A stretch of DNA of 64,000 bases, taken from contig NZ_JACHMX010000001.1 in NCBI RefSeq assembly GCF_014205155.1, positions 7,564,001 to 7,628,000 on the forward strand, read 5' to 3'. Below the pieces are notes generated by a model. That model was not told where the DNA came from and searched no databases. It saw nothing but the letters and a program-made list of their open reading frames with translations. A program made the position numbers and the translations under genes. Within the stretch, counting starts at the first letter, position 1; each line of letters starts with the position of its first letter. Shown one piece after another: positions 19,418-23,928 of this stretch. This DNA comes from Amycolatopsis umgeniensis. GTDB lineage: Bacteria; Actinomycetota; Actinomycetes; Mycobacteriales; Pseudonocardiaceae.

Positions 19418-19589
19418 GGATACGAGCTTAGAACCGCTGTCCGGGTGAACTCGCGCCACGGTGTCGAAGATCGCTCCGGAGGTCGTTTTTCCCTGCTGGG
19501 CGGTGAATTTTCCGCAAACGTGTCGTAGGCTTGGCGACGCTCCAGGCCGATTTTCGGTCCGTCCGCTCGTCTGAGAAAAAGGTGGCAGG

Positions 19590-19721
19590 ATGGCACAGGA
19601 ACAGTCAGGTACGCAGGCTCCCGACAGCGGTTTGCTGCTGGAGGTCGAAAAGATCCCGACCGCGGTGGACCGCGGGAAGGCCAACGGCGCGGCCGCCGAC
19701 AACGACGGCAACGACGGCTGA
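19590..19721 (+). CDS. 43-residue peptide, candidate RiPP precursor
   Basis: A short open frame: an N-terminal half MAQEQSGTQAPDSGLLLEVE with an LLLEVEKIP patch that could be a recognition helix or strand, then a tail rich in Asp, Asn and Gly (ANGAAADNDGNDG). It has a good ribosome site (AAGGTGG, about 5 bases before the ATG), and its TGA is followed with zero spacing by the GTG of a JmjC/cupin oxygenase gene, so the two should be translationally coupled. No Cys, Ser- or Thr-rich core, so it is not a lanthipeptide type. The D/N-rich tail is a plausible substrate for beta-hydroxylation. Function is inferred from context only. Confidence 0.6.
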   Translation: MAQEQSGTQAPDSGLLLEVEKIPTAVDRGKANGAAADNDGNDG

Positions 19722-20903
19722 GTGCCCGAAACGCCGACGCTGGCTGACCTCGTGGCTCCGCTCGGGGTCAGCCAGTTCTTCCAAGACGTCCAGGGCGAGA
19801 CCTACCGCCGTTTCGAAGGCCGCGCGGGCCGGTTCGCCGACCTGTTGCCGTGGCCGGCGCTGAACGCGATCCTCCGGCAGCATCGCCTGGAGTTCCCGCG
19901 GCTGCGGCTGGCGCTCGATGGGACTCCGGTGCCCATGGAGAGCTACACCGATCTCGTCCCCACCCGCCGCAGTGGCACCGTCCCCCGTCTGCAGGCCGCC
20001 CCGTTCACGGAGCACCTCCGCGACGGCGCGACGATGGTGCTCGACGCCATCCAGGAACTCAGCGACCCGATCGGCGATCTCGCCAGGAGCCTCGAACACG
20101 ACCTCCGCGAGAGCGTCCAGGTCAATCTGTACGCGGGCTGGGGCGTGACGCACGGCTTCGACGTGCACTGGGACGACCACGACGCGTTCATCATCCAGGT
20201 CGCCGGCCGCAAACGCTGGCGGATGCACGGTCCGACCAGGCCCGCTCCGCTGCACCGCGACGTCGAGCAGCCCGAGCGCCCCGGTGAGCCCATCGACGAC
20301 TTCATCCTCGAAGACGGCGACGTCCTCTATGTCCCGCGCGGGCATTGGCACGACGTCACCGCGGTGGGGGAGATGTCGCTGCACCTCACGCTCGGTTTCA
20401 GCCCGGCGACCGGGATCGACCTGGTGTCGTGGCTCGCCGACAAGCTGCGGGCGAGCACCGTGTTCCGCCAGGACCTCCCGAGGTTCGGGACGGATGAGGA
20501 GCGCGCGGCCCGCGCCGACGCCCTGCGTGCGGAGCTGGAAGCCACGCTGACCACCGACGTCGTCGGCCGGTTCCTCGCCGAGCGCGACTCGGCGGCTCCG
20601 GCGCACCCGCGGGTCGGGCTGCCGTGGGCGGCGACCCCCGGCCTGCTCCCGGACGGCGACGAGACCGAGGTCCGGTTCCTCGTCCCGAGGGCGGTGCTCG
20701 AGGAAGGCGACGGCAGGGTGACCCTGCTCGCGGACGGGAAACGGTTCGTCTTCGCGGACGCCGCGGCCCCGCTGCTGAAGGCGTTGCTCGACGGCAGCCC
20801 GCAGGCGGTCAAGCGACTCGCCGAGCTGTCCGAACTCGATCGGGGGACCGTTCGCGCCTTCCTTGGCGAGCTCACCACGCAGGGGCTTCTCTCCATCGGC
20901 TGA
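19722..20903 (+). CDS. JmjC/cupin-4 Fe(II)/2-oxoglutarate oxygenase with C-terminal winged-helix-like domain
   Basis: A 393-residue putative hydroxylase. The double-stranded beta-helix core carries THGFDVHWDDHDAF (Fe ligands H149 and D151), GRKRWRMHGP (2-oxoglutarate-type Lys near 164) and LYVPRGHWHDV (distal His near 208-210). This is the ROXA/NO66-like cupin-4 family, whose known members hydroxylate His or Arg in ribosomal proteins. The C-terminal 80 residues, from EVRFLVPRAVLEE on, look like a small winged-helix domain ending ELTTQGLLSIG; that may be the ROX winged helix or a PqqD/RRE-like peptide-binding domain. It starts immediately after the stop of the 43-residue peptide gene. Confidence 0.85.
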   Translation: MPETPTLADLVAPLGVSQFFQDVQGETYRRFEGRAGRFADLLPWPALNAILRQHRLEFPRLRLALDGTPVPMESYTDLVPTRRSGTVPRLQAAPFTEHLRDGATMVLDAIQELSDPIGDLARSLEHDLRESVQVNLYAGWGVTHGFDVHWDDHDAFIIQVAGRKRWRMHGPTRPAPLHRDVEQPERPGEPIDDFILEDGDVLYVPRGHWHDVTAVGEMSLHLTLGFSPATGIDLVSWLADKLRASTVFRQDLPRFGTDEERAARADALRAELEATLTTDVVGRFLAERDSAAPAHPRVGLPWAATPGLLPDGDETEVRFLVPRAVLEEGDGRVTLLADGKRFVFADAAAPLLKALLDGSPQAVKRLAELSELDRGTVRAFLGELTTQGLLSIG

Positions 20904-20945: not shown

Positions 20946-20964
20946 TAAGCTAAGGCATGCCTAA
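20946..20964. promoter_or_regulatory. IdeR/DmdR-type iron box
   Basis: TAAGCTAAGGCATGCCTAA lies 24 bases before the ATG of the sucrase/ferredoxin-like gene and agrees with the DtxR/IdeR consensus TWAGGTWAGSCTWACCTWA at about 15 of 19 positions; a further TAAGGTAAGG run follows directly. It should make the gene iron-repressed. The alignment was done by eye. Confidence 0.7.
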
Positions 20965-20988: not shown

Positions 20989-21951
20989 ATGACCGCTCAG
21001 CTCTCGGACACCCCATCGCCGGACAGCTCGGCGCCGCCCGCCGCGTTGCCGGGCTGCGCCACGGTCGCGCGCATGCTGGGCGCGAGCCCCGCCGGCACCG
21101 CGGCCGACATGCGCTGCTGGCTGCTCATCGAGCAGCCGGGCCCCTGGCCCGCGGACGCGCTGGAAAACGTCCTCGACGAGGCCTTCCCCGCCGAACGCCG
21201 TGAGCTGCTCGAGAATCTGAGACGATCCCGCGGGCTCCGTCCCCTGCTGATCCGCCGTCCCGGCAAGCACCAGCGAGACCCGGATCGCCCCCGCGCCGTG
21301 TACGTCGGCGGGGGCGAACCGGGCAACCGCTGGATGGAACGCCTGGAGATCCGCGACACGAGCGAGCTGGCCGCGCTGGATCTCGAAGCGGTCGCGAACG
21401 GCGTCGGCGGACTCGGCACGCGAGTGGACGGGCCGCTGTTCCTGGTCTGCACGCACGGCACCAAGGACATGTGCTGCGCGGTGCTCGGCCGCCCGCTGGC
21501 CTCGGCGCTCAACGCGAACCATCCCGGCCGGTCCTGGGAGGTCAGCCATGTCGGCGGCGACCGCTGGGCGGGCAACCTCCTCGTGGTCCCCGACGGATTC
21601 CTGCACGGTCAGCTCAATCCGGCCGAGGCGGCGCTGGTCGCCAAGGCCGCGCTGCGCGGGCAGGTCGAACCGGAGCAACTCCGCGGCCGCACCTCCGCCA
21701 GGACGGCGTGGGCGCAGTTCGCGGAGATCGCGCTCCGGCGTCAGCTGGATCTGTCCGGATTGGACGACGTGCTCGCCGTCCAGGAGGAGCCGCTGCTCGA
21801 ATCCGACGCGCGGGTGGTCACCGTGCGCGGCGGCGAGGACTACTACTCCGTGACCGTGCGCCGCCGGTCGGCGACGCCGCGCGGGGACAGCCGGTGCGCG
21901 GGCCTCATCCAGCCCGCCGGGTACGTCACGGACAACATCACCAAGCTCTGA
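20989..21951 (+). CDS. Sucrase/ferredoxin-like (thioredoxin-fold 2Fe-2S) protein
   Basis: A 320-residue cytosolic protein of the sucrase/ferredoxin-like family, a thioredoxin-fold ferredoxin relative despite the historic name. The N-terminal part has GTAADMRCWLLIEQPGPW; the ferredoxin-like domain has FLVCTHGTKDMCCAVLGRPL near residue 152 with three cysteines, then SHVGGDRWAGNLLVVPDG; another Cys is near the C-terminus (SRCAGLIQPAGY). These suit a 2Fe-2S cluster. An iron box precedes the gene, and GGAGAGG gives the ribosome site. A role in iron-starvation redox chemistry, such as siderophore-iron reduction, is inferred and not proven. Confidence 0.82.
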   Translation: MTAQLSDTPSPDSSAPPAALPGCATVARMLGASPAGTAADMRCWLLIEQPGPWPADALENVLDEAFPAERRELLENLRRSRGLRPLLIRRPGKHQRDPDRPRAVYVGGGEPGNRWMERLEIRDTSELAALDLEAVANGVGGLGTRVDGPLFLVCTHGTKDMCCAVLGRPLASALNANHPGRSWEVSHVGGDRWAGNLLVVPDGFLHGQLNPAEAALVAKAALRGQVEPEQLRGRTSARTAWAQFAEIALRRQLDLSGLDDVLAVQEEPLLESDARVVTVRGGEDYYSVTVRRRSATPRGDSRCAGLIQPAGYVTDNITKL

Positions 21952-21996: not shown

Positions 21997-22012
21997 TAGA
22001 ACATGTGTTCGA
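21997..22012. promoter_or_regulatory. LexA SOS box 2
   Basis: TAGAACATGTGTTCGA matches the GAAC-N4-GTTC LexA core with one outer mismatch. It is centred 24 bases after box 1 and only 8 bases separate it from the GTG start at 22021, so a leaderless transcript would have the two boxes near -40 and -16. Confidence 0.78.
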
Positions 22013-22020
22013 CTGGCCGA

Positions 22021-23928
22021 GTGCGATGGGATGGACAGCGGGCGGACGGCGGCGAGCCGGTGCTGCCCGGATTGGACGGGCTGCGGCGTTCGGTGCGCGC
22101 GCCCGAGTTCGGCGGCGTCACCTTTCACGAGGTGCACGCCAAATCCGTGCTGAACAAGGTGCCGGAGGGCTCCGGTGTGCCGTTCGGCTGGACGGTGAAC
22201 CCGTACCGCGGCTGCTCGCACGCGTGCACGTACTGCCTCGAAGGCGGGACGCCGGTCCTGATGGCCGACGGCCGGACGAAACCGTTGGCGGACCTGGTTC
22301 CCGGCGACACGATCTACGGGACGCGCGGGCGCGGCGCCGGACGGCGCCTGGTGCCGACGGAGGTGCTCGCGCACTGGTCGACGCTCAAACCGGCGTACCG
22401 CCTGACCCTCGACGACGGAACGTCCATCGTGGCCAGTGGCGACCACCGGTTCCTCACCGGGCGCGGGTGGAAGCACGTCACGGGCTCCCGCTTCGGCGCG
22501 GCGCAGCGGCCGCATCTGGTCGGGGGCACCGAACTCGTCGGGGTCGGGAAGCTGACCCGAACCCCGGACGACACCATCGGCTACCGCGCCGGGTTCCTGT
22601 GCGGAATGCTGCGGTCCGGGGGATTCTCGGCCGAACAGGCCGCGGCGGACAGGGCGCTCAAGTACTTGCCGGACTTCGGCGCGTCGGTCGGCTTCGTGCA
22701 GGTGCCGTCGTCGCCGGATTCCCACTGGCAGCGGGGTTTCCTGGCCGGGCTGTTCGATCTCGCCGGTAGTTACCGGCACGGCGCGCTGCGCGTCACCCAC
22801 GACGAACAGGACATCGTCTCCACCTTCTGTGCCGCGCTCGACAACTTCGGTTTCCGTTACGTGAAGACCGAAAACGCCAAATTCCGTCCGTTGTGGACGG
22901 TGCAGCTGCTCGGTGGGCCTTCGGAGGAGATGCGTTTCTTCCATCTCGCCGATCCCGCCGTCGGCTGGAAAAGGTCGCTCGACGGTCTCGCCATCGGACG
23001 CACCAGGCGGAAGGTGGCGTCCGTCGAGGCGCTCGGCATCGAGCTGCCGCTGTTCGACATCACCACCGGCACCGGCGACTTCATCGCCGACGGCATGGTC
23101 ACGCACAACTGCTTCGCGCGGAACACCCACACGTACCTGGATTTCGACGCCGGACGTGACTTCGACACGCAGGTGATCGTCAAGGTCAACGCGCCCGAAG
23201 TGCTGGCCGCGCAACTGCGCCGGCCGAGCTGGACGCGCGAGCACGTCGCGATGGGCACGAACACCGATCCCTATCAGCGCGCCGAAGGCCGGTACGAGCT
23301 GATGCCGCGCATCATCACCGCGCTGGCGGATTCGGGGACGCCACTGTCCATCCTGACCAAGGGGACCGTGCTGGCCAGGGACCTGCCGCTGCTGGAATCG
23401 GTGTCGAAGGACGTGCCCGCCGGGCTGGCGATCTCGCTCGCGCTGCTCGACGAGGATCTGCAACGCCGTCTCGAACCGGGGACGCCGACCCCGAGGGCGA
23501 GGCTCGACCTGATCCGCAAGGCGCGGGACGCGGGCCTCCCGTGTTCGGTGCTGGTCGCCCCGGTGCTGCCGTACCTGACCGACACGGCGGAGGCGCTCGA
23601 CGCCTTGTTCGCGCGGCTGGCCGAGGCGGGCGCCACACGCGTCACCGTCCTCCCGTTGCATCTGCGGCCGGGCGCGCGGGAATGGTTCGCGCGCTGGCTC
23701 GGCCGGGAACATCCGGAACTGGTGCCGAAATACCGCGAGCTGTACTCGCGCGGCGCCTATCTCCCGAAGTCCTATCGGGAGCGGTTGGGAACCCGCGTCG
23801 GCCCGTTGCTGCGGCGTCACGGCTTCGGTTCCCGTGCGGACGACGGGGACCGGATGCAGGTGACGATGCCCGTGCAGCGCGCCGCCGAGCCGGTCTTGCC
23901 GCCCGCGGAACAGCTCAAGCTGCTGTGA
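22021..23928 (+). CDS. Rv2578c-family radical SAM protein interrupted by an intein
   Basis: A 635-residue precursor; 343 residues remain after removal of the intein. The host protein matches the actinobacterial Rv2578c family: VRWDGQRADGG at the start, FGGVTFHEVHAKSVLNKVP, then NPYRGCSHACTY before and CFARNTHTYLDFDAG after the insertion, giving the CxxxCxxC that binds a 4Fe-4S cluster and SAM. The rest of the barrel follows (MGTNTDPYQRAEGRYELM, SILTKGT, VLVAPVLPYLTD). The family is distantly like spore photoproduct lyase and its reaction is unknown. Two SOS boxes directly upstream imply a DNA-damage role. GTG 22021 is chosen by similarity to the family start; ATG 22003 lies inside an SOS box. 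Confidence 0.92.
   Translation: MRWDGQRADGGEPVLPGLDGLRRSVRAPEFGGVTFHEVHAKSVLNKVPEGSGVPFGWTVNPYRGCSHACTYCLEGGTPVLMADGRTKPLADLVPGDTIYGTRGRGAGRRLVPTEVLAHWSTLKPAYRLTLDDGTSIVASGDHRFLTGRGWKHVTGSRFGAAQRPHLVGGTELVGVGKLTRTPDDTIGYRAGFLCGMLRSGGFSAEQAAADRALKYLPDFGASVGFVQVPSSPDSHWQRGFLAGLFDLAGSYRHGALRVTHDEQDIVSTFCAALDNFGFRYVKTENAKFRPLWTVQLLGGPSEEMRFFHLADPAVGWKRSLDGLAIGRTRRKVASVEALGIELPLFDITTGTGDFIADGMVTHNCFARNTHTYLDFDAGRDFDTQVIVKVNAPEVLAAQLRRPSWTREHVAMGTNTDPYQRAEGRYELMPRIITALADSGTPLSILTKGTVLARDLPLLESVSKDVPAGLAISLALLDEDLQRRLEPGTPTPRARLDLIRKARDAGLPCSVLVAPVLPYLTDTAEALDALFARLAEAGATRVTVLPLHLRPGAREWFARWLGREHPELVPKYRELYSRGAYLPKSYRERLGTRVGPLLRRHGFGSRADDGDRMQVTMPVQRAAEPVLPPAEQLKLL
22234..23109 (+). other. Intein (292 residues) with degenerate LAGLIDADG endonuclease
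   Basis: In-frame protein-splicing element. Block A is CLEGGTPVLMADG with Cys1; block B reads IVASGDHRFLTGRGW; blocks F and G read LFDITTGTGDFIADGMVTHN with the terminal His-Asn, followed by Cys+1. The insertion lies before the third Cys of the CxxxCxxC motif, so Cys+1 is a cluster ligand once spliced. The middle has two LAGLIDADG-like helices, GFLCGMLRSGG and GFLAGLFDLAGS, in which the catalytic acidic positions are replaced, so the homing endonuclease is probably dead. Block B lacks the usual Thr but keeps the His. Confidence 0.9.

Follow-up and report, generated by a model that had tools for sequence, protein, structure and literature searches.

In this study, we analyzed a window of 64,000 nucleotides from Amycolatopsis umgeniensis (NCBI RefSeq assembly GCF_014205155.1, contig NZ_JACHMX010000001.1, positions 7,564,001 to 7,628,000 of the forward strand; coordinates below are those of this whole stretch), in which a gene for a 43-residue peptide directly precedes a gene for a JmjC-type oxygenase. 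The oxygenase probably modifies the peptide, and the pairing looks like a widespread, little-studied peptide-modification system. A sequence-only reading had described a short gene with a ribosome site that ends in TGA and is followed, with zero spacing, by the GTG of the oxygenase; the coordinates and the ribosome site AAGGTGG were found to be as described, and the two genes share one reading frame. The peptide holds the LLLEVEKIP patch and the Asp/Asn/Gly tail noted there, ending ADNDGNDG, and is without match in Pfam or NCBIfam. A Suc_Fer-like gene, unnoticed by that reading, follows as the third gene of the module.

19579..19585, + strand: ribosome-binding site AAGGTGG of the peptide gene, 4 bases 5' of the ATG (from the sequence)
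19590..19721, + strand: 43-residue precursor-like peptide MAQEQSGTQAPDSGLLLEVEKIPTAVDRGKANGAAADNDGNDG (conserved in relatives, purifying selection in this frame only)
19626..19673, + strand: leader motif SGLLLEVEKIPTAVDR, residues 13-28 (conserved; residues 16-21 a beta-strand in the model)
19674..19718, + strand: core or tail GKANGAAADNDGNDG, residues 29-43, candidate modification site (from substitution ratios; low confidence in the model)
19722..20903, + strand: JmjC_2 (cupin_4) Fe(II)/2-oxoglutarate-type oxygenase, 393 aa, GTG start (PF08007 profile, orthologs, model)
20166..20174, + strand: HxD iron-binding motif, H149 and D151 (invariant in alignments; presumed role)
20211..20213, + strand: K164, presumed 2-oxoglutarate-binding lysine (invariant in alignments)
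20349..20351, + strand: H210, presumed distal iron ligand (invariant in alignments)
20667..20900, + strand: C-terminal winged-helix/RRE-like domain, residues 316-393 (structure model; whole-chain alignment to NO66 and MINA53)
20951..20964, no strand assigned: palindrome TAAGGCATGCCTAA between the oxygenase and Suc_Fer genes (resembles an IdeR/DtxR iron box in relatives; weak here)
20989..21951, + strand: Suc_Fer-like protein (PF06999, E 2.8e-18), 320 aa, third gene of the module

Upstream of the oxygenase, the peptide motif was present in 58 of 59 loci of close relatives (52-98% enzyme identity). These comprise 40 named contigs and 19 loci of related genomes, the window's own copy being excluded; the two sets overlap in species, so that they are not 59 independent cases. 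All 40 named contigs with close enzyme relatives carried the peptide, in 24 distinct forms; 39 of them carry Pseudonocardiales genus names, and the remaining one (L064) bears the name Rhodococcus rhodnii and may be a misnamed genome. The orthologs nearest to the window's oxygenase, among the named ones, are from Amycolatopsis (97-98% identity). The ratio of non-synonymous to synonymous polymorphism (pN/pS), calculated from 39 distinct DNA sequences of the 30-residue block SGLL...DNDGND, was 0.318 in the peptide frame and reached 1.86 and 2.54 in the two alternative frames, which indicates that the peptide frame is translated and selected as protein. By part, the ratio was 0.135 for DRGK...DNDGND, against 0.483 over the opening ten residues (SGLLLEVEKI) and 0.549 over the four after them. 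Where public annotation of the listed peptides was given, it read 'hypothetical protein' and once 'BatC protein'. The latter (P0165, Leifsonia poae) is a relative of the DGGAD peptides described below, and its label is probably a misleading low-complexity annotation. A known family for the peptides was also sought: one repeat peptide gave MSCRAMM matches at E 0.36-0.53, reflecting composition, and Pfam and NCBIfam gave otherwise none.

A total of 296 Actinomycetota genomes were drawn evenly, 47 of which contained PF08007 above cut-off. The 69 PF08007 rows were reduced to 58 places, eight second halves of split hits being merged and three sub-cut-off rows left out. In 36 of the 58, PF06999 above cut-off follows downstream with the same orientation, no further than 1 kb away (the distance limit was set at 4 kb). 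By inspection, an Asp-rich peptide lies upstream of the JmjC_2 gene in 43 places, including 35 of the 36 Suc_Fer-adjacent ones, the 36th (L180) being cut off by the contig end after 227 upstream bases, as well as 8 of the 22 without adjacent Suc_Fer (L152, L155, L156, L161, L176, L178, L179 and L196). The sequence-only reading was to fall if the short frame lacked conservation beside homologous oxygenases; this check was run and did not refute it, the frame being present in 40/40 named contigs and 43/58 sampled JmjC_2 genes. A composition rule, set after the peptides had been seen and run without the window's own place and L180, accepted 33 of 34 Suc_Fer-adjacent and 8 of 22 non-adjacent places versus 49 of 1198 control windows of equal size taken from these loci; it misses L152, L155 and L192, included by eye, and lets in L163 and L194, which were left out of the count. 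Several upstream frames were rejected as peptides, namely an acidic one without repeats (L163), one ending GDGND and broken by a stop (L160), and other short frames at L183 and at one L185 place. About 1 kb before the JmjC domain at L183 there is a different short frame, MSDIQKNAPETASEEPGLEIEDEELEALSGGLEVI, with the look of a Gly-Gly leader. Three short JmjC_2 proteins of about 300 aa (L202-L204) are without such a peptide.

Many tails are built of tandem repeats, e.g. EGPADGGSNPGGHDGGADGTA or DGDATDGADADGTDA. In 43 tails trimmed by hand, Asp was present in 43, Gly in 42, Thr in 40, His in 18, Asn and Arg in 14 each and Lys in 5. The usual targets of hydroxylases are Asp, Asn, His, Arg and Lys, and Asp is therefore the sole usual target common to every tail, a universality that is partly built in, since the peptides were sought by their Asp/Asn content, while the Suc_Fer-adjacent set is complete without that choice. 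Of the D/N-rich tail proposed earlier, Asp was retained as the shared residue and Asn was not.

A scan of genome contigs for relatives gave 79 loci from the best 80 of 136, 77 of them with upstream DNA (L091 and L119 were cut). An Asp/Asn-rich short frame was recognized by inspection upstream of the oxygenase in 68 of the 77, comprising the 40 named close relatives, 5 Acidobacteriota (L081, L082 and L084-L086, two of them partial), 13 Nocardiopsis and relatives, and 10 others including Mycobacterium, Gordonia, Nocardioides, Aeromicrobium and Virgisporangium. On three metagenome-assembled Acidobacteriota contigs the leaders are nearly that of the window (SGLLLSVDPL in L082, SGLLLSVEPL in L084 and SGLLLSAEPL in L085) and are followed by long D/S/G tails, the enzymes being 47-48% identical to the window's; these contigs carry the trio of peptide, oxygenase and Suc_Fer. 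The pairing therefore reaches far beyond the genus, into Actinomycetota and Acidobacteriota, with two genes extended to three, a reach that was also missed when the stretch was first read. The window genome itself contains a second module of another type (C1:1621000-1627000, L031), with a DGGAD-repeat peptide (leader SLNDDDISTT), a JmjC_2 oxygenase and Suc_Fer.

The oxygenase matched JmjC_2 (PF08007) with 95.3 bits against a curated cut-off of 22 (E 2.6e-27). The HxD motif, the 2-oxoglutarate Lys and the distal His were rightly reported as kept: none of H149, D151, K164 and H210 varies among 15 orthologs or across an alignment of 35 rows that reaches down to 36% identity, and we take H149, D151 and H210 to be iron ligands and K164 the 2-oxoglutarate binder, as in the JmjC family. 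In the structure model, the C-terminal domain consists of strands 316-319, 325-328, 332-337 and 340-345, followed by helices 346-355, 363-369 and 374-386. The beta-beta-beta then alpha-alpha-alpha order of a RiPP recognition element (RRE), where RiPP stands for ribosomally synthesized and post-translationally modified peptide, is present at residues 325-386 and is preceded by the extra strand 316-319; this order is the criterion given in the available part of PMC12710340. The protein, C-terminal domain included, aligns to NO66 (over residues 1-393) and to MINA53 in the JmjC, helical and winged-helix architecture of the ribosomal oxygenase (ROX) type, with 23-25% identity to NO66 in structure-match alignments. 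Because the whole chain also aligns with NO66 and MINA53, an RRE and a ROX winged helix are indistinguishable here, and, if the substrate reading below is right, the two may be one fold. The earlier proposal of a winged-helix or PqqD/RRE domain agrees with the order of strands and helices; Pfam gave no PqqD match. The fold matches listed include no RRE entry, and this should not be read as evidence that there is none.

In a run-on model of peptide and oxygenase (pTM, the predicted template modelling score, 0.85), peptide residues 16-21 (LLEVEK) form a strand, with a mean predicted local distance difference test score (pLDDT) of 89 for the block 11-20, and the tail is unplaced at low confidence. 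The leader is thus the part modelled as ordered, in keeping with its proposed contact with the enzyme, and the C-terminal domain would be the part contacted. In a tree of 42 selected oxygenases (midpoint root, leader types assigned by eye), one branch (100/99) parts all 9 'LLL-type' rows from all 22 'DDI' or 'GGAD' rows, whose leaders read LTDEDIxTV, LDDDDITT and similar; 11 rows have neither label, and L155, labelled 'none', was later found to have a peptide. Leader types and enzyme types co-sort, and Suc_Fer-adjacent members lie on both sides of the branch. The peptide is thus a genuine, conserved gene that goes with this oxygenase and with many of its distant relatives, and a second leader type exists beside the LLLEVEKIP-like one.

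Members of the Suc_Fer family are of thioredoxin-like [2Fe-2S] nature. Relatives of the window's Suc_Fer were detected by tblastn in 40/40 named loci, 6/6 Acidobacteriota and 8/33 remaining loci, where misses may be distant relatives, and PF06999 was confirmed by Pfam in all three loci tested (L082, L085 and L114). No PDB sequence match was obtained for the window's protein. A palindrome such as TTAGGTATGCCTAACGTAA lies between the oxygenase and Suc_Fer genes, with 3-5 mismatches to the IdeR/DtxR consensus in 17 of 25 Pseudonocardiales-type loci; it has 6 mismatches in six more, all Amycolatopsis, and in the window species, at 6 mismatches, it is degraded. L068 and L072, where Suc_Fer lies further off, have 9-10 mismatches and no site within 200 bases. 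In 100 random 350-base control windows the mean best was 9.1 mismatches and the lowest 5. Across about 1.2 Mb of loci, 19 loci have a site at <=5 mismatches at this junction and 5 have one elsewhere, and no iron-box-like site at that level was found in other lineages, which suggests an iron link for Suc_Fer in one order only. An iron box upstream of the peptide gene was sought and rejected, the best being 7-10 mismatches in 30 of 31 loci and 5 in L066, against the random level of 9.1. In the window genome, the iron-box consensus gave 15 sites at <=3 mismatches versus none in the control, and the palindrome pattern gave two further sites at one mismatch, both among these 15, versus one in a reversed-pattern control.

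A second subtype, in which no Suc_Fer was seen, has an aldo/keto reductase gene and then a further protein after the oxygenase in 13/13 Nocardiopsis-group loci (L088-L105), in two annotated Streptomyces plasmids (L216 and L217) and in L152 and L155 (genomes of one family); the reductase assignment comes from PF00248 in one protein tested. The protein that follows has a HADLQWANL...ILDWE stretch reminiscent of aminoglycoside phosphotransferase-like kinases, and gave no Pfam hit. Near this subtype in the tree, L108 and L172 matched neither protein and L160 only the latter. The finishing genes downstream thus differ by subtype, and it is the peptide/oxygenase pair that stays more constant. Clustering of neighbours within a few kb per locus showed that, beyond the oxygenase and Suc_Fer types and likely opposite-strand shadows, none spans more than 5 of 58 loci, the small clusters being unannotated. 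A defence system was considered and dropped, with no PADLOC hit. Further downstream in the window, 22003-23928 encodes a radical SAM protein (PF04055); its residues 125-156 weakly match an intein-splicing model, below that model's cut-off, and are possibly an intein insertion.

Taken together, the sequence-only reading was partly supported, and the peptide is a likely substrate of the oxygenase through leader binding. The leader LLLxVExL..VDR would form a beta-strand paired to the C-terminal winged-helix (RRE-like) domain. This would place the flexible D/N/G tail at the Fe(II)/2-oxoglutarate centre, and at least one tail Asp may be hydroxylated there, most likely at the beta carbon; for Asp as the modified residue we lean only slightly in favour. 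The Suc_Fer-like protein would act in the same pathway, as redox partner or on the putative mature product. As expected of a RiPP, the precursor is encoded beside its candidate modifying enzyme, which we infer to modify it. If this is right, a common gene pair would form a defined peptide-modification system, one that has an oxygenase dedicated to it, unusual Asp-repeat substrates and a leader code that is visible in the sequences; these JmjC_2 proteins, several of which a single source annotates as 'ribosomal protein L16 Arg81 hydroxylase', would gain a substrate one gene away, and Suc_Fer-like proteins a genomic partner that is testable at once.

Several observations weigh against substrate status or a RiPP-like role. 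No peptide was recognized at L019 (same genus, 52% identity), the sole miss among the 59 loci of close relatives, at 9 of the 77 loci of the relatives scan (L094, L100, L102, L103 and L106-L110), or in 14 cases of the sample of 58, among them L194 with only 506 bases upstream. The partner of the leader strand was not seen in the run-on model, and the tether may bias it. The Pfam scan of the oxygenase found no PqqD/RRE domain, only winged-helix matches mostly below cut-off, and no peptidase or exporter family was seen to recur in the few kb around the module. Within Pseudonocardiales, conservation is higher in the tail than in the leader, in contrast to many RiPP cores; this departure from hypervariable natural-product cores suggests a fixed function. 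The fold of the oxygenase is equally that of ribosomal-protein hydroxylases.

One alternative extends the substrate reading: the tail may be an intracellular metal (iron) or acidic buffer peptide, with hydroxylated Asp as iron ligands, a role that beta-hydroxy-Asp may take, and Suc_Fer releasing iron under iron limitation. Asp-rich repeat tails occur in many lineages, and the junction site stands in 17 of the 25 Pseudonocardiales-type loci, with the weaker form in six more. Against this, L068 and L072 are without the site, it is weak in the window species and precedes Suc_Fer only, other lineages have none at <=5 mismatches, and the palindrome exceeds its control in the window genome by two further sites to one; we regard the buffer as rather unlikely. 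Equally doubtful is its fuller form, in which the Asp-rich repeat peptides of a large, undescribed RiPP-like class in Actinomycetota and Acidobacteriota would become poly-(beta-hydroxy-aspartyl), intracellular iron binders through a JmjC_2-RRE oxygenase, and a [2Fe-2S] Suc_Fer, iron-regulated in Pseudonocardiales, would reduce and release the iron. If true, such a store would sense itself, since peptide hydroxylation needs iron, oxygen and 2-oxoglutarate.

That the short frame serves only as a translational-coupling leader for the oxygenase, with no peptide function of its own, agrees with the stop codon (TGA or TAG) that directly abuts the oxygenase open frame, in frame, in 37 of the 40 named loci. 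Read-through of this stop would yield a peptide-enzyme fusion, and simple coupling is likelier than that. Selection at the amino-acid level, retention of the peptide in the three exceptions where the frame differs (L059, L060 and L066), the other spacings in Acidobacteriota and Nocardiopsis relatives and the repeat-built tails elsewhere make a coupling-only role most improbable. It was also considered that the oxygenase, as its fold allows, is a ROX/YcfD/NO66-like enzyme acting on a ribosomal or other protein, and that the peptide is a regulator or inhibitor occupying its C-terminal domain. RiPP precursors are also substrates of JmjC/cupin enzymes, according to the available parts of PMC12707348 and PMC12257519. 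With identity to NO66 so low, and with a pairing that is kept although the adjacent Asp-rich tails vary greatly from lineage to lineage, as expected of substrates, we consider this improbable and prefer the peptide as the substrate.

Compared with known systems, the oxygenase resembles NO66, MINA53 and YcfD in whole-chain fold, including the C-terminal part, and differs in that their substrates, by PDB titles, are ribosomal proteins (His or Arg), whereas here the peptide is co-encoded. Xia et al., by the title of a 2025 report, are said to have described alpha-ketoglutarate dioxygenase macrocyclization in RiPPs. SmaO, of a graspetide cluster, and PesHI, of nitrilobacillin, carry out Asp beta-hydroxylation in a RiPP precursor (PMC13097080, PMC13060819), as proposed here; PesHI differs in involving MNIO, and the available parts of these papers describe no Asp-repeat core or Suc_Fer gene. 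BipG/PbsQ of biphenomycin biosynthesis (PMC12707348, PMC12257519) are JmjC/cupin oxygenases acting on the ribosomal precursor of their own cluster, and a JmjC protein of this pathway is an ornithine hydroxylase working on a precursor peptide (PMC12707348); as far as the available text goes, they differ in that Orn is hydroxylated, the cluster is a multi-enzyme one and the precursor has aromatic motifs and no Asp-rich tail. The module of Asp-rich peptide, JmjC_2 and Suc_Fer was not found described in searches of one open-access library, which do not show absence from print. Bregman et al. 2025 (PMC12710340) reported JmjC (PF08007)-RRE fusions from fish and algae and noted that bacterial homologs occur in RiPP-like contexts; for these fusions the available part of the paper describes no precursor, leader, Asp-rich core or Suc_Fer partner, and its statement, within that part, is the nearest prior art and anticipates part of this module.
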